NCBI RefSeq assembly: GCF_038049935.1
Contig: NZ_CP145886.1
Location: forward strand, 3,829,001 to 3,893,000
Length of the DNA stretch: 64,000 nucleotides
Direction of reading: 5' to 3'
Source: Rossellomorea sp. y25
GTDB lineage: Bacteria > Bacillota > Bacilli > Bacillales > Bacillaceae_B
Under the pieces are notes generated by a model, which worked only from the letters and a program-made list of their open reading frames with translations, was not told the origin of the DNA and did no database searches. Position 1 is the stretch's first letter; the number at the start of each line of letters is the position of its first letter. Position numbers and translations under genes: made by a program. Of the stretch, positions 26,429 to 43,056 are shown in pieces.

Positions 26429-26476
26429 GATGGATTATTGCGCTGCATCTGTCATGGGGGAGCGTCCACTTGTGAG

Positions 26477-26745
26477 AATACAGGTGAAATGGGGGTGAAT
26501 CCGGCTTGGTTTTTGTGAGAATACAGGTGAAATGGGGGTGAATCCGGCCGTTTATCGTGAGAATCCAAGTGATTGGTGAAGAATCAAGCCGGTTTTTGTG
26601 AGAATCCAGGTGAATGGTGAAAAATCCAGCCAGTTTTTGTGAGAATGCAGCCGTTATTGTGAAGAATCCGGCCGTTTTCTCTCATAATCCAGCCGGTTTT
26701 GCTAATAATCCGGCCGATTCCGGGAAAAATCCAGCCACTTTACTA
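26477..26745 (+). repeat. Array A: 13 units of about 21 bp, AATCCRGCCG type
   Basis: Unit starts: 26477, 26498, 26520, 26541, 26562, 26582, 26603, 26623, 26644, 26665, 26686, 26707, 26728, a step of 20-22 bp. Consensus AATCCRGCCGTTTTTGTGAG; the AATCC(A/G)GCCG part is best conserved. A 35-nt block (26471-26505) is repeated exactly 43 bp later (26514-26548), showing growth by two-unit duplication. Same unit type as array B. Confidence 0.9.
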
Positions 26746-27044
26746 TTATTACCAAATAGTACTCCATCTCTTATCCCCCCTGTCGATCGTCGTTTGGGAA
26801 TCATCTCTGTTGCTCGGATATGCGTATATGCATGTGTATGCCTCATCAAGAATCGCATTTACCTTCTCTTATCAAAAGGTGGCATCCAAACGGTTTATTG
26901 CTGTAAACTCTAACTATAGATGACTATTGGCAAACAGGATCTATAAGAAGGATCGCAGTCACCGTGGCATCCATTGTCTTCATGTGGAATGCTAAAAAAA
27001 ACGACTCAAACAATACATTTGAATTCATAGAGGAGTGTTGATAA
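26746..27044. other. Intergenic, no gene recognised
   Basis: About 300 bp between array A and the flavin reductase gene. No open frame with a ribosome site, no clear hairpin; an alternating purine-pyrimidine patch (ATGCGTATATGCATGTGTATG) occurs near 26820. Confidence 0.5.
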
Positions 27045-27581
27045 ATGAAAGTATTAGCCCTTTTAGGAAGCACACGAAAAAACGGCAACTCAGAATACCT
27101 TGCAAAAAAAATCGTAGAAGGAACCGATCACACTGTCGTATCTCTTACGGACCTGCATATTGAACCGATTGAAGACTTAAGACACTCTGAAGGTGGATTC
27201 TCTCCAGTCGATGATGATTACGAAAAACTCGTTCAATTAATAGAAGAGCATGACGTATTACTATTTGCTACACCTCTTTATTGGTACGGAATGAGCGGTC
27301 CCATGAAAAACTTCTTCGACCGCTGGAGTCAGTACCTGCGCGATGAGCGCTTTAACTTAAAAGAAGAGCTTACGAAGAAGAAAGCATATGTAGTGATTAC
27401 CGGTGGAAGCTCAGCAAAGATTAAAGGCCTTCCCCTCGTACAGCAGTTCAATTACATCTTTGAATTCGTGAACATGGAATTTGCAGATTATATGATCGGT
27501 GCCGGAGTGAAGCCTGGAGAGATTGTGAATGACATAGCAGCCCTTGAAAAAGCTGAGCGTTGGAATGCATTATTTAAATAA
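27045..27581 (+). CDS. ywqN: NAD(P)H-dependent FMN oxidoreductase (YwqN-like)
   Basis: 178-residue flavodoxin-fold protein: FMN phosphate loop LLGSTRKNGNSEYLAKK and the second FMN contact ATPLYWYGMSGPMKNFFDRW. Likely reduces quinones or other small acceptors. Matches B. subtilis YwqN in length and motifs. GAGGAGTG precedes the ATG. It lies between repeat arrays A and B together with the next two genes; nothing in it points to a link with the arrays. Confidence 0.8.
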   Translation: MKVLALLGSTRKNGNSEYLAKKIVEGTDHTVVSLTDLHIEPIEDLRHSEGGFSPVDDDYEKLVQLIEEHDVLLFATPLYWYGMSGPMKNFFDRWSQYLRDERFNLKEELTKKKAYVVITGGSSAKIKGLPLVQQFNYIFEFVNMEFADYMIGAGVKPGEIVNDIAALEKAERWNALFK

Positions 27582-27584
27582 TGG

Positions 27585-27612
27585 ATGATCCCTTTAAGGG
27601 GTCATTTTTTTT
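27585..27612 (+). terminator. Terminator after ywqN-like gene
   Basis: ATGATCCC / GGGGTCAT stem (one G-T pair), 5-nt loop, then eight T residues. Confidence 0.8.
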
Positions 27613-27668
27613 GTTAATTTTACCTGATAAGGAAACATTATAAGCAAAATTCTTTATGGAGGCGCTCT

Positions 27669-27956
27669 ATGGATTTTCCGACAATACACACAAACGTCTG
27701 GGACGCTGTCATCGCGATTCCTGTGATTATCATCCTCACCCAGCTCATTAAAGTTTTCTTTAAACCTCATGCCTTTTTAGTACCGAATATTGCCGTTATT
27801 CTTGGCTTGCTTATCTCTATTTTCATCAGTCATAAAGGACACCTTGCTACGGGAATTTTCATGGGGTTCTTCTATGGGTACGCTGCGATCGGGAATTATA
27901 CTTCATTGAAGACTTCACTATTGACTTTCCGGGGGGAGAAGGAGGATGCTCCATGA
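27669..27956 (+). CDS. Small membrane protein with holin-like layout
   Basis: 95 residues with three hydrophobic segments (WDAVIAIPVIIILTQLIKVF; VPNIAVILGLLISIFI; ATGIFMGFFYGYAAIGNY) and a charged C terminus, the general layout of small phage-holin-like proteins. GGAGG lies 6 nt before the ATG. Its 3' end overlaps the convergent NERD gene by 98 bp. Function not known. Confidence 0.6.
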   Translation: MDFPTIHTNVWDAVIAIPVIIILTQLIKVFFKPHAFLVPNIAVILGLLISIFISHKGHLATGIFMGFFYGYAAIGNYTSLKTSLLTFRGEKEDAP

Positions 27957-28914
27957 GGGGCGTTAAGTCGTATCTTTTATCTTTGGTTGAGCCAGTTGTT
28001 GATAGGTTCATTTTCTGTAAAATCTTACGAGTCGCTGAAGGGGATTCCAATTGTAAAAACTCCCTCGCTTCCCTGTTCGTAATAGAAGGCCGGATAAGAA
28101 AAGCATAATCTCTTAACGAATAAACATGAGCATCTTTTTGTACTGATTTACAGCTGCGGCATCTCCAAGTACCACCCATTCTCTCCATTGGTGCGGATTC
28201 ACACTGAACACAATAGACACCACAAATAATATCTGTTTGTGAAACGTTAAATTGATGAAGAACATCATACGTTTGAGGTGTATGGTGTTTAAGAAGAAGC
28301 TTGGTCATTTTGGATAATTCTTTAGGAGTTAATGAAGGGATTGGATAAAAGTGTGTGTAGCTTTCAATTTTGAAGGGAAGCTTCGCACTTCTTACCAGCC
28401 TTTGAGTCACCTGCTCTTCCGTGGTGTTTTTTATTTGAGTATGGGGATTCGTAAGTACTACCAGGTGCTCTATTGGTACAGTAGGACATTTATTTTCCAT
28501 TAACCATCTTTCAAGCTCCACCTTCTGTCTGTACGCTTGCAGGATTGGATCTGGAAACACTTCTGTTTTACCATTTAACGTTCGAATCATTTGATTGAAG
28601 TTTGTATCGATATAGATATCTCCAGCAATGTTTTTCACTTCTAAAATAAGAATAAAATGTCTATGAAGGATTAACGTATCAATTTGAATGAAGGAAGATT
28701 TGATTTGTAGACGAAGATCATGAAGGATAACATACTCTTTATCAGGAAGATTGTTCAAATAAAAGTCTAATGATAACTCACCACTATATCCAGCCTTGAA
28801 TTTACCTAGTTGAGACTCTATTTCAAGTCTTCTCACAAAGTATTTTGACAATCGCCTTAAAAGGGCTTCAAGCTTTGAGATGATAACAGGGGGTTGATGT
28901 TCTTTTCCGATCAA
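27859..28914 (-). CDS. NERD nuclease-domain protein 1 with zinc ribbon and C-terminal HTH
   Basis: 351 residues. N-terminal NERD domain, a PD-(D/E)XK-like nuclease fold: E46 (GYSGE), D79 (QID), E92-x-K94 (EVK), and a conserved FNQMI segment. Then a zinc ribbon (C235/C238, C252/C255) and a C-terminal helix-turn-helix-like region (TNREAREFLQLESPSATRK), ending in a basic tail. I choose TTG at 28912-28914: AAAGGAGTG is 6 nt upstream, and MIGKEHQPPVIISKLEALLR then aligns end to end with the paralogue at 41864, with all four catalytic positions identical. Array B begins 63 bp upstream. Probably processes DNA; target unknown. Confidence 0.85.
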   Translation of the reverse strand: MIGKEHQPPVIISKLEALLRRLSKYFVRRLEIESQLGKFKAGYSGELSLDFYLNNLPDKEYVILHDLRLQIKSSFIQIDTLILHRHFILILEVKNIAGDIYIDTNFNQMIRTLNGKTEVFPDPILQAYRQKVELERWLMENKCPTVPIEHLVVLTNPHTQIKNTTEEQVTQRLVRSAKLPFKIESYTHFYPIPSLTPKELSKMTKLLLKHHTPQTYDVLHQFNVSQTDIICGVYCVQCESAPMERMGGTWRCRSCKSVQKDAHVYSLRDYAFLIRPSITNREAREFLQLESPSATRKILQKMNLSTTGSTKDKRYDLTPLMEHPPSPPGKSIVKSSMKYNSRSQRTHRRTP

Positions 28915-28977
28915 ATAGATCACTCCTTTAGGTGAATGGGAAGAGTTTCAGTGGGTGACAGAGGTGCTGTTGAAAAA

Positions 28978-29300
28978 GATCCAACGGTTTTAGGAGACGA
29001 CGCTGTTTTTGAAGAATTTCAGCCGTTCATGAGGTGGGCAAAGTCTTTCACGGGATTGATCGGGCCGTTTCTGAGGTGGGACGGGGTAATTCAAGAGAGA
29101 ATCCAGCCGTTTTTGAGGTAGAACGCAGCTTTCAAGAGATCATCCAGCTGTTTTTAAGATAGAACGCAGCTTTCAAGAGATCATCCAGCCGTTTTTCCGG
29201 AAAATCCGGCCGTTTCTGAATAAAATCCGGCCGAAACGTGGAGAAAACCAGCCGTTTTTAAAAGTAATCCGGCCGAAATCACGAAAAATCCAGCCTCTTA
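28978..29300 (+). repeat. Array B: about 15 units of 21 bp upstream of NERD gene 1
   Basis: Cores CAGCCG/CGGCCG fall at 28982, 29000, 29020, 29062, 29104, 29125, 29145, 29167, 29186, 29207, 29228, 29249, 29270 and 29291; two further positions (29041, 29083) keep the phase but have decayed. The best units read AATCCRGCCG followed by TTTTT or GAAA. A 30-nt block at 29119-29148 recurs at 29160-29189 (41-bp, two-unit duplication). Same orientation and consensus as array A. Confidence 0.9.
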
Positions 29301-29343
29301 CCAAATTATAACAAATCCACAACCATGATTCTACAATTTTCTC

Positions 29344-29368
29344 AAAAAAAAAGATGACCAAAGTCACC
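29344..29368 (-). terminator. Terminator of ohrR
   Basis: Reverse strand GGTGAC-TTTG-GTCATC then nine T residues, 7 bp after the ohrR stop. Confidence 0.65.
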
Positions 29369-29374
29369 CCTACT

Positions 29375-29815
29375 CTACTCTCTTCTCATACCTTGCAGTC
29401 TTCCCAATATCGTGGTTAACGTCTGATCCAACCTCTCCAACTCTTCCCCATCCATCTCTAATCGTTCGAGCAATCGAGTCGGAACACAAGCAGCCTTTTC
29501 CTTCATGGCTTCTCCTTTTTGTGTAAGAGAAATCACGACGCTCCGCTCATCTTCAACTGACCGGTGACGCTCGACAAGCCCGTTCGCCTCCATTCTTTTA
29601 AGCATCGGAGTTAACGTTCCCGAGTCTAAGAACAATTTACGCCCCAATTCTTTTACAGATGCCGTCCCATCTTCCCAAAGCACTAACAATGCAAGGTATT
29701 GAGGATAAGTCACACCGATTTCTTCAAGCAGCCCACGATATAACTTTGTTATCTCCCGCTCTGCTGTATAGATCTTAAAACATATTTGATTTTCTAATAA
29801 TAATGGATCTTTCAT
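29375..29815 (-). CDS. ohrR: OhrR, organic peroxide-sensing MarR repressor
   Basis: 146-residue winged-helix repressor. The sensing cysteine is C12 in ENQICFKIYTAERE, the position of Cys15 in B. subtilis OhrR; the DNA-binding region is SGTLTPMLKRMEANGLVERH with the wing DERSVVISLT. Oxidation of the cysteine by organic hydroperoxides releases the operator. Divergent from ohrA. Start at MKDPLLLENQ (29815) with AAAGGA upstream; the longer frame is unlikely. Confidence 0.9.
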   Translation of the reverse strand: MKDPLLLENQICFKIYTAEREITKLYRGLLEEIGVTYPQYLALLVLWEDGTASVKELGRKLFLDSGTLTPMLKRMEANGLVERHRSVEDERSVVISLTQKGEAMKEKAACVPTRLLERLEMDGEELERLDQTLTTILGRLQGMRRE

Positions 29816-29880
29816 ACATGTCGATTCCTTTCTTGAACAAACTAACTTTAGATTATCATACAAAAAAAGATATCAATTAT

Positions 29881-29964
29881 CAAATTTAATTGTACACAAC
29901 TTAATTGTTGACAACTAAAACCAAAGCCGTTAATATTAGTTTTGTAATATTAAATTACACACAA
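29881..29964. promoter_or_regulatory. OhrR operator region and ohrA promoter
   Basis: ohrA sigma-A promoter: TTGACA (29908-29913), 17-bp spacer, TAATAT (29931-29936). AT-rich inverted repeats suited to OhrR flank it: AACTTAATTGTT near 29899 and TGTAATATTAAATTACA (29943-29959) over the expected start site. Confidence 0.6.
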
Positions 29965-29993
29965 CCAAAACAAGAAAATGAGGAGTGAAAGAA

Positions 29994-30416
29994 ATGGAAG
30001 CATTATACACAGCAAAAGCAACAGCAACAGGTGGACGCGCCGGAAAAGTAACAAGCAGTGACGGAGTATTGGATGTCGGACTGGCAATGCCTAAATCACT
30101 TGGGGGTTCTGGAGCAGAAGGGGCAACGAATCCTGAACAATTGTTCGCAGCTGGATATGCGGCTTGTTTCGATAGCGCTCTTAACTTAGTGGCTCGTCAA
30201 GAAAAGAAAAAGATTGAATCGAAAGTAACAGCTGAAGTTTCCATTGGAAAAGATACAGACGGTGGATTCAAACTCGGCGTTGTGTTATCAGTAGCAGTAA
30301 GTGGTGTTGAATTAGATGAAGCGAAGCAATTGGTCGAAAAGGCACATGGAGTTTGCCCATATTCTAAAGCAACAAGTGGCAATATCGATGTTGAATTAAA
30401 TACTGAATCACTTTAA
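29994..30416 (+). CDS. ohrA: Organic hydroperoxide resistance protein Ohr
   Basis: 140-residue Ohr/OsmC-family thiol peroxidase that reduces organic and fatty acid hydroperoxides. Both active-site cysteines are present: C58 (FAAGYAACFDSA) and C121 (GVCPYSKAT). ATG at 29994 chosen, with GAGGAG upstream; a GTG three codons earlier overlaps the ribosome site. Divergently paired with its repressor gene ohrR. Confidence 0.93.
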   Translation: MEALYTAKATATGGRAGKVTSSDGVLDVGLAMPKSLGGSGAEGATNPEQLFAAGYAACFDSALNLVARQEKKKIESKVTAEVSIGKDTDGGFKLGVVLSVAVSGVELDEAKQLVEKAHGVCPYSKATSGNIDVELNTESL

Positions 30417-30424
30417 ATAATCGC

Positions 30425-30459
30425 GGATAGGCAATTAACTGCCTATCCCTTTTTTTTTC
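30425..30459 (+). terminator. Terminator after ohrA
   Basis: GGATAGGCA / TGCCTATCC stem, 6-nt loop, then a T tract of ten. Confidence 0.9.
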
Positions 30460-30468
30460 TATAAAAAA

Positions 30469-30511
30469 CGAACGTTTGTTCTTGTTTTATTCCAACGGTT
30501 TGGACTATAAT
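30469..30511 (+). promoter_or_regulatory. LexA-like box over a sigma-A promoter
   Basis: CGAACGTTTGTTCT (30469-30482) matches the Bacillus SOS box CGAAC-N4-GTTCG at 9 of 10 fixed bases and abuts the -35 TTGTTT (30482-30487); -10 TATAAT is at 30506-30511 (18-bp spacer). Confidence 0.55.
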
Positions 30512-41857: not shown

Positions 41858-41887
41858 AACTCGTCAGGTTATTGGCGGGTTTTTTTG
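41858..41887 (+). terminator. Terminator after catR
   Basis: AACTCGTC / GGCGGGTT (two G-T pairs) followed by seven T residues; overlaps the end of the convergent NERD gene. Confidence 0.65.
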
Positions 41888-42874
41888 TTTGTGTTTTCGG
41901 GGTGGGCTTTCATCGAATAATAGGATGTATTGTGTTCCTTTTTTGGTGCCTGTTGTGGGGAGATTTAGGGATTGGAGGAGTCTTTTTGCAACATGAGAAG
42001 AATTGATTTTCAAAAAATTTCTTAGTTCCGCGTTATTTATTTTAGGACCAATCAAAAGTTCATAGTCTTTGAGGGCATGGATGTGAGCATTAATCTTTTC
42101 ATTTTTACAATTCATACAAAACCATTTGCCATATTTCCTTGCTAACGGCCGATAATTGCACTCTTCACATATGACCCCCTTTAATAGCTCACCCTCTGTA
42201 ATGTTAAATCTCTCTAAGACAGAGAAATCAGGCTCTTCGTGTTGTCTTTTTAAGCTGCGAATGATTTTTTTAATTTCTTTAGGCGCGGCCTTCTCTTTTC
42301 GAAGAGAGTTCTCAATATATCTCACCTTGCCCAATAGAGAACTTCGATGGATGACGATTTTTTGAAGGGTTTTGTTATCTGGAGAGGTTTTAATGATAGT
42401 CCGATCGTTGCCCATGACTACGCAAGAGAAAACGGGGATGGAGGGCAACCCATTCTCTTTCAACCATTTCAATAGCTGACTTTCTTGTCGTTTGATTTGG
42501 ATCGTAGGGTCCGGTAAAGCTGATTCAAATCCATCTTTTGTTTGTATAAGTTGATTGAAGATAGGATCGAAGTAAGCAGTGCCAGCAAGGTATTTGACTT
42601 CGATATTGAGGATGAATTTGGTTGTAATGGGTTGGGTGTCTATTTGAAAAAAGCTATCTTTGCAGGGGATTCTGAGATCGTGGAGAATGTAGTATTTTTT
42701 AGGGTCTAAAAAGCTTAAAGTATAATCTAGTGCTTTCTCTCCTTTGAATCCTGCCATTCTTTTACCAAGTTCTTCGGATATCAGAAGGAGTTTAGGGTGG
42801 TTAAGGGGAAGTCTGCGGAGTAAAGCTTGTAACATCAGGATGATTCGAGGTATTATTCGTTCTTTTTCGATCAT
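41864..42874 (-). CDS. NERD nuclease-domain protein 2 with zinc ribbon and C-terminal HTH
   Basis: 336 residues, paralogue of the protein at 27859. NERD nuclease domain with E46 (FKGE), D79 (QID), E92-x-K94 (EVK) and FNQLIQTKDG; zinc ribbon with C236/C239 and C253/C256; C-terminal helix-turn-helix-like region (NNAELRNFLKINSSHVAKRL) and a Pro/Lys tail. ATG at 42872-42874 chosen (GGAGTG upstream); the 40-codon longer frame is translated repeat DNA. Array C starts 82 bp upstream. Role in DNA processing inferred from the family. Confidence 0.85.
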   Translation of the reverse strand: MIEKERIIPRIILMLQALLRRLPLNHPKLLLISEELGKRMAGFKGEKALDYTLSFLDPKKYYILHDLRIPCKDSFFQIDTQPITTKFILNIEVKYLAGTAYFDPIFNQLIQTKDGFESALPDPTIQIKRQESQLLKWLKENGLPSIPVFSCVVMGNDRTIIKTSPDNKTLQKIVIHRSSLLGKVRYIENSLRKEKAAPKEIKKIIRSLKRQHEEPDFSVLERFNITEGELLKGVICEECNYRPLARKYGKWFCMNCKNEKINAHIHALKDYELLIGPKINNAELRNFLKINSSHVAKRLLQSLNLPTTGTKKGTQYILLFDESPPRKHKQKNPPIT

Positions 42875-42956: not shown

Positions 42957-43056
42957 TTTATCAGCGAAATATTAAATTTATCAGCGAAATTCACGATTTA
43001 TCAGCGAAATTCCCATTATATCAGCGAAATCTCAATTTTATCAGCGAACGCCCTTT
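42957..43056 (+). repeat. Array C: five units of exactly 20 bp upstream of NERD gene 2
   Basis: TCAGCGAA recurs at 42961, 42981, 43001, 43021 and 43041. Unit consensus TTTATCAGCGAAATTCNCNA; the first 14 bases are nearly constant, the last six vary. Different sequence from arrays A and B but sharing a CAGC(C)G core and the two-helical-turn step. Confidence 0.92.

Follow-up and report, generated by a model that had tools for sequence, protein, structure and literature searches.

Direct repeats spaced by about two turns of the helix are familiar from the iterons of plasmid Rep systems, where they lie beside the gene for a winged-helix DNA-binding protein. Modular repeats such as the BOX and bcr elements occur between genes in many places, and we know of no cognate gene for them. 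In the RAYT/REP systems, as described in two papers, palindromic repeats occur with a nearby, co-evolved HUH transposase that is thought to spread them (PMC8266576, PMC3116915). The NERD domain is widespread, and its role in bacteria is called unstudied in another paper (PMC9040797). Searches of open-access papers, by their listings and the openings of abstracts, turned up none that connects NERD proteins with repeats.

The results below suggest that NERD genes in Bacillus relatives and their private repeats, dispersed in the three cases counted, form an unrecognised gene-repeat partnership. Set against RAYT/REP, the two are alike in that a single-copy gene lies beside repeats dispersed between genes, and in that protein and repeat co-vary (here, motif labels compared with the NERD tree). 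They differ in the enzyme, RAYTs being HUH enzymes that act on palindromic single-stranded hairpins and NERD being of the PD-(D/E)XK type, and in the repeat: unlike REP or REPIN elements, the NERD units are non-palindromic, 20-21 bp long and arranged in tandem arrays. As with iterons and Rep, direct repeats of about two turns adjoin a gene with a winged-helix-like domain, but Pfam gives no Rep domain, the NERD genes lie on the chromosome in several copies, and their arrays are scattered. NERD proteins in general (PF08378) share the domain, with the catalytic residues kept; arrays occur only at the zinc-ribbon/winged-helix subfamily, another NERD subfamily having them at 0 of 10 loci. Unlike a BOX or bcr element, a NERD unit identifies its gene.

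NERD1, NERD2 and their arrays

The window is the whole stretch of DNA that was analysed, 64,000 nucleotides of Rossellomorea sp. y25 (G000:C1:3829001-3893000, where G000 is this genome, a single contig of 4.63 Mb). Its features are listed in window coordinates; those of the NERD domain were derived from residue numbers.

26470..26748, plus strand: array A, the second array of the AATCCRGCCG unit (strict part 26623-26748)
27859..28923, minus strand: NERD1, with NERD nuclease domain, zinc ribbon and winged-helix-like domain; 354 aa from GTG
27946..28137, minus strand: predicted winged-helix-like domain, about residues 263-326 (AlphaFold2 model and VIA-align winged-helix matches of modest Z)
28153..28215, minus strand: four-cysteine zinc ribbon, C237, C240, C254 and C257 (invariance in 56 homologues)
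28450..28791, minus strand: NERD domain, residues 45-158, with E48, D81, E94 and K96 (Pfam and 56 homologues)
28978..29307, plus strand: array B, the home array of NERD1, in strict 21-bp steps from 29182
41864..42874, minus strand: NERD2, a NERD1 paralogue about 40% identical
42957..43048, minus strand: home array of NERD2, a 20-bp unit with CGCTGATA core

NERD1 matches NERD (PF08378) with 83.2 bits against a cut-off of 22.1, its sole Pfam match at E<=1; neither a HUH transposase domain nor a Rep initiator domain was found by Pfam at that threshold. Both sets of residues on which the initial annotation relied are invariant in an alignment of 56 homologues, so that its intact catalytic site (E46, D79, E92 and K94 in its numbering, E48, D81, E94 and K96 here) and its four-cysteine zinc ribbon both stand. 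NERD1 has nuclease-like catalytic residues and is a predicted nuclease. The C-terminal region, previously described as helix-turn-helix-like, is predicted to form a winged-helix-like domain at the end of the AlphaFold2 model (pLDDT 92.3). Purifying selection acts on the NERD gene, with dN/dS of 0.16-0.36 in ten pairs. The best structural matches are Can2 and Cdn1, whose titles describe cyclic-oligoadenylate-bound CRISPR ancillary nucleases; Foldseek returned a single match below E=0.001, VC1899 (1xmx, 9.6e-4), and a PDB sequence search with the profile gave a best E of 0.049, which is not meaningful. The closest named relatives are proteins of R. aquimaris and R. vietnamensis.

NERD1 lies immediately downstream of array B, and by the ORF list a MarR-like ORF lies on the other side of the array. 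The unit of array B reads AATCCRGCCG-WWW-T-NNNN-RAW, or GGCYGGATT on the NERD strand. Between 28978 and 29287, 11 places match the core AATCCRGCCG at 7 or more of 10 positions; the last six units follow in exact 21-bp steps (29182-29307), and the first five are spaced at 38-42 bp, the intervals containing only weak units. The 21-bp array first described as about 15 units is thus real, with 11 recognisable units, the figure of 15 counting degenerate slots. The lag-21 self-match over 28924-29307 is 0.41, and the highest value at any lag from 12 to 33 in 1000 mononucleotide shuffles is 0.35; 20 shuffles of the whole window gave no array with at least three strong units. A TTG at 28914, three codons after the GTG, is an alternative start that fits the homologue consensus MIxKER, and the first recognisable unit lies 63 bp from it, the gene-array distance given earlier.

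The 127 internal units give the consensus AATCCRGCCG-WWW-T-NNNN-R-A-W. Information reaches 1.4-1.9 bits in columns 1-5 and 7-10 and at most 0.09 in columns 15-18, the core being partly strong by construction because a unit was admitted if at least 6 of 9 core positions matched. All 127 units have A or G at position 6. When 11 array pairs are compared between G000 and genome G032, differences are found at 22 of 349 core sites, 26 of 155 sites in columns 15-18 and 1036 of 8040 flanking sites; change is slower in the unit core than in the spacers. Because the core is conserved while the spacers are free, selection on a site is indicated, and not copying alone. Position 6 is the most changeable column (11 of 39 between G000 and G032), yet it changes only between A and G. 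The consensus is not palindromic, and no inverted repeat within the unit appears among the 13 pairs listed for 26500-30500.

Three other readings of the unit were set aside. A protein-coding reading (NPAVFxx heptads) was rejected, as there are in-frame stops in several arrays and synonymous positions are fixed. The unit resembles CGGCUGGAU, which we take to belong to the 3' end of 16S rRNA; pairing with it was dropped, as only position 6 is free and wobble would tolerate C to T too. A phage origin was rejected: the region of array A has no match among 50,697 phage records, and at least 120 viral stretches carry one 21-spaced unit pair, of which, among those listed, 1 of 120 had three or more units.

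NERD2 and its 20-bp array, in the same window, went unnoticed in the initial annotation. A third NERD gene of G000, at 238078, has the unit GACGCAAT, and further NERD genes with arrays lie at 228276 and 4600557. NERD genes are often paired about 10 kb apart, each copy with a different unit (G000:C1:228276 and 238078; G012:C1:232693 and 242342; G007:C10:83397 and 93101). Genomes have from 1 to 13 NERD matches each, with broken copies and a patchy distribution.

Arrays beside NERD genes and the identity of their units

Tandem Repeats Finder, run on 40 NERD loci, shows adjoining 20-21-bp repeats at many of them, differing in sequence. For a controlled comparison, the test loci comprised 30 fetched NERD loci, NERD2, 77 near-full-length matches and five loci from other families, with NERD fragments mostly outside the set. 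Placement by tblastn gave 112 loci (L402, which had no hit, was dropped), and L345 was dropped upstream, where its sequence is too short. For each locus, lags from 12 to 33 were compared over the 350 bp upstream to find the one with the best self-match, with a strict score defined as at least 38 of 63 matches at lag 20 or 21. Control genes were ORFs of at least 150 aa taken from the window, from two stretches of G000 and from 20 of G032.

The best upstream lag is 20 (57 loci) or 21 (42 loci) at 99 of 111 NERD loci, leaving 12 without; the same lags are best at 28 of 112 downstream, 21 of 110 at 800-1250 bp upstream and 41 of 300 control genes. The strict score is reached upstream at 76 of 111 loci, downstream at 6 of 112 and far upstream at 4 of 110; when lags outside 19-22 are scored instead, the corresponding numbers are 0, 1 and 0. 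Six of the 300 control genes pass, three of which are themselves NERD genes, so that 3 of 297 remain. These three are the divergent neighbour of NERD2, which shares its array; a gene with a NERD1-family array; and a G032 gene with repeats of GTCGATAA, a unit that belongs to a NERD gene at another place in that genome (L334). The NERD loci and genomes are related by descent, so these counts are not independent. Most home arrays lie 60-140 bp before the start codon. Arrays of 20-21 bp upstream of NERD-zinc ribbon-HTH genes are far commoner than at other genes, and the upstream periodicity check proposed in the initial annotation for such homologues (76 of 111 against 3 of 297) is thereby borne out.

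The chance that 20-21-bp minisatellites are simply common between genes, with NERD genes merely nearby, is very small: the arrays are indeed dispersed, and in some genomes they persist without NERD1, but the strict score separates NERD loci from other genes, unit identity follows the NERD tree and a second NERD subfamily has no arrays. A chance neighbourhood of NERD1 and its array had been considered because some array-rich genomes have no close NERD1, and was overturned by the controlled upstream test.

Units read in gene orientation often consist of a variable 4-6-nt part and an A/T-rich part; examples are GGCYGGATT, CGCTGATAAA, CGCCGTTA, GACGCAATAA, GTCGATAATA, GGATCATA and TGGCMCAA. Among 154 intact proteins, 77 were given one of 20 motif labels chosen from repeated 8-mers, and the other 77 were left unlabelled. 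On the NERD tree the labels require 28 changes (minimum 19, shuffled mean 60, with 0 of 200 shuffles as low), a clustering to which near-copies add. Neighbouring clades have similar yet different motifs, as with CGCCGWTA, CGCTGATA and CGAGCATA. The repeat unit is lineage-specific, and protein and repeat co-vary. Specificity residues in the C-terminal half were suggested by two close pairs of clades (7 of 7 and 25 of 29 positions), but this idea was abandoned: in a pooled comparison measured against clades with a common motif, the residues that distinguish sister clades of unlike motif show no concentration in either the winged helix (p=0.76) or the C-terminal half (p=0.90).

Outside the genus, NERD1 homologues are present in 38 of 52 genomes, 46 of which had been chosen as one per family of the order. 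At zinc-ribbon-type loci of other families (tblastn of at least 80 bits; one locus with masked bases left out), the best lag is 20 or 21 at 43 of 59 upstream and, downstream, at 36 of the 59 that have sequence there; 39 of 59 pass the strict score on one side or both. Another NERD subfamily gives a strict score at 0 of 10 loci, one masked locus again left out (the masked runs are in L419 and L467). Six further loci of the other NERD type (L315 and L317-L321) had no tblastn hit and stand outside that count; Tandem Repeats Finder gave no 18-24-bp array at them. At 21 loci of all families with arrays on both sides of the gene, the two flanks have a common 8-mer on the same strand in 18, on opposite strands in 1 and none in 2. 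Such sharing at 19 of 21, against 16 of 420 with the motif of another locus, indicates that a NERD gene often has its own repeat on both sides.

Among 397 genomes of the order, 25 contain an exact 21-spaced ATCCRGCC pair; 19 of the 25 fall outside the genus, and 9 of those 19 have a single pair. The ATCCRGCC core is kept in arrays of G134, G158, G286, G306, G326 and G413, in head-to-head arrangement in genus g88, and in G306 and G158 NERD genes have a GGCCGGAT-type unit next to them; distant NERD lineages thus have similar units.

Dispersal and change of the arrays

In G000 the pattern ATCCRGCC-N12..34-ATCCRGCC is matched 85 times, a genome-wide dispersal that the initial annotation did not notice, and its reversed control has no match there or in any of the 36 genus genomes. 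By eye the 85 matches form 24 clusters. One is a pair at 285741 with a letter-for-letter copy in G003 and G010, and setting it aside leaves 23 arrays, A and B included. The unit of NERD2, CGCTGATA, has 41 pairs in G000 and that of the NERD gene at 238078, GACGCAAT, has 61, each in 13 clusters by eye, with one cluster of each directly upstream of the respective NERD gene. All three units counted genome-wide are dispersed between genes. Pairs of CGCTGATA and GACGCAAT are present in 21 and 19 of the 36 genus genomes, with no match to the reversed control in any of them, and the ATCCRGCC pair count ranges from 85 to 0 across G000 and 35 congeners. A GTCGATAA array in L118 of G032 (at about 1090-1200), away from its NERD gene, hints at a fourth dispersed unit. 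Spacing in the GACGCAAT arrays of G000 often alternates between 20 and 21 bp, and one of them (G000:C1:3555366-3555968, about 600 bp) has nearly identical units, apparently a recent expansion.

Pairs are commoner in genomes where a fetched NERD gene carries the unit, for GGCYGGATT (7 vs 29 genomes, p=7.7e-5), CGCTGATA (8 vs 28, p=1.7e-5) and GACGCAAT (12 vs 24, p=4.6e-6), the p values serving as guides because the home array itself adds a few pairs, some NERD genes are unfetched and the genomes are related. At least five pairs are found in 27 of 27 unit-carrying cases against 21 of 81 others. Genomes with an intact NERD1 have ATCCRGCC counts of 85, 71, 51, 29 and 24, and those in which it is absent, broken or shortened have at most 27. 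Arrays without an intact NERD1 occur in G003, G007, G015, G019, G022 and G029 (27 matches in G019 and 20 in G003), with unit purity not clearly lower in this small, biased sample. The initial annotation's self-contained, local repeat-nuclease unit must therefore be given up, since 22 other arrays belong to the family of array B and arrays may remain where no intact NERD1 is left.

Of 49 arrays in G000, 42 could be placed among ORFs of at least 80 aa (overlapping ORFs below 150 aa were ignored): in motif orientation 35 lie between co-directional, 3 between convergent and 4 between divergent ORFs. Array B was mis-parsed in this placement, A and B being chained, and array L052 overlaps a 232-aa ORF of doubtful reality. 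In 21 arrays of the NERD1 family a recurrent edge resembling TTTGG.AA....TGT.AA.C precedes the first unit; the edge is weaker in the GACGCAAT family and absent from the CGCTGATA family.

Comparison with G032 shows how individual arrays differ. At L039, L043, L046 and L048, G032 keeps an edge or degenerate units, which indicates loss or contraction there. At L055 (G000:C1:3733763) the array is bracketed by two copies of a terminator-like repeat, GAGGGACGGACCTT...GGTCCGTCCCTC, and G032 has a single copy; this difference fits an insertion or a deletion. None of the six array loci compared, L045 included, shows a clean insertion, which in a MITE-like transposable element would come with a target-site duplication. 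Of 22 array loci fetched from ten congeners, 19 share a flanking gene with a G000 array. Since four of the six loci look like loss and flanking genes are so often shared, old arrays that are kept or slowly amplified would fit better than frequent jumping. Several arrays (L039, L048, L050 and L060 of G000; L112, L114 and L118 of G032) adjoin another dispersed repeat, GACAAGCATAAGACG...CCTCGAGCCCC, which is about 150-300 bp long.

Selfish pair, host function or defence

We lean, with modest confidence, towards a RAYT/REP-like selfish pair built from unrelated parts, a NERD nuclease and its private repeat. The initial annotation had proposed a nuclease with repeats of its own that might spread as in RAYT/REP; the upstream association, the lineage-specific unit and the dispersal of three units favour that proposal, though not its self-contained form. 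The association, lineage-specific units, dispersal of three units, conserved catalytic and zinc sites, purifying selection and slower core were computed, and we infer that the C-terminal domains bind, that the protein cuts, and how the units spread. NERD-zinc ribbon-winged helix proteins would be sequence-specific DNA-binding nucleases, each with its own 20-21-bp tandem unit, read by the zinc ribbon and winged helix. A unit of about two helical turns would put the sites on one face of the DNA, where proteins could stack and bind cooperatively. The home array would be the anchor and the other arrays of the genome its copies; if the protein cuts or nicks DNA in or next to an array, recombinational repair may then multiply units and seed or keep arrays. 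Gene and repeat would then persist jointly, much as in RAYT/REP. That the Bacillales hold a large unrecognised class of such self-spreading pairs, several to a chromosome, whose private units have multiplied and diversified together with their genes, we consider about evenly balanced.

A host-serving role in DNA binding is rather unlikely. A NERD protein would repress its own gene through the home array, the dispersed arrays would insulate transcription or fold the chromosome, and the nuclease site would be a safeguard or act on some other substrate. The typical distance of home arrays from the start codon is that expected of operators, the NERD1 model has a winged-helix-like domain, arrays keep their places in congeners while the core changes slowly, and 35 of 42 arrays lie between co-directional ORFs. 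An operator would not be expected downstream, however, where 36 of 59 loci outside the genus have their periodicity; the variable number of NERD matches, broken copies and patchiness are unlike a core regulator; and the catalytic residues are invariant.

Defence, in which the NERD protein would attack foreign DNA and the arrays would mark self or store or trigger the protein, is improbable. It would suit the rapid turnover of NERD paralogues and the CRISPR ancillary nucleases among the structural matches, but PADLOC gives only a weak PglW match (E=0.033), the NCBIfam match is far under its cut-off (29 of 460 bits), and the rarity of three or more units among the listed viral stretches indicates that the arrays are not a phage mark.

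For the NERD family, the finding supplies natural candidate substrates, with at least twenty gene-motif groups. If the pairs are self-spreading, as we favour, they would parallel RAYT/REP with a nuclease of unrelated fold and with tandem arrays of non-palindromic units; should they serve the host instead, they would reveal dispersed, helically phased intergenic sites without an assigned function. On either reading, the coupled change of protein and repeat is a natural experiment in DNA-recognition specificity.
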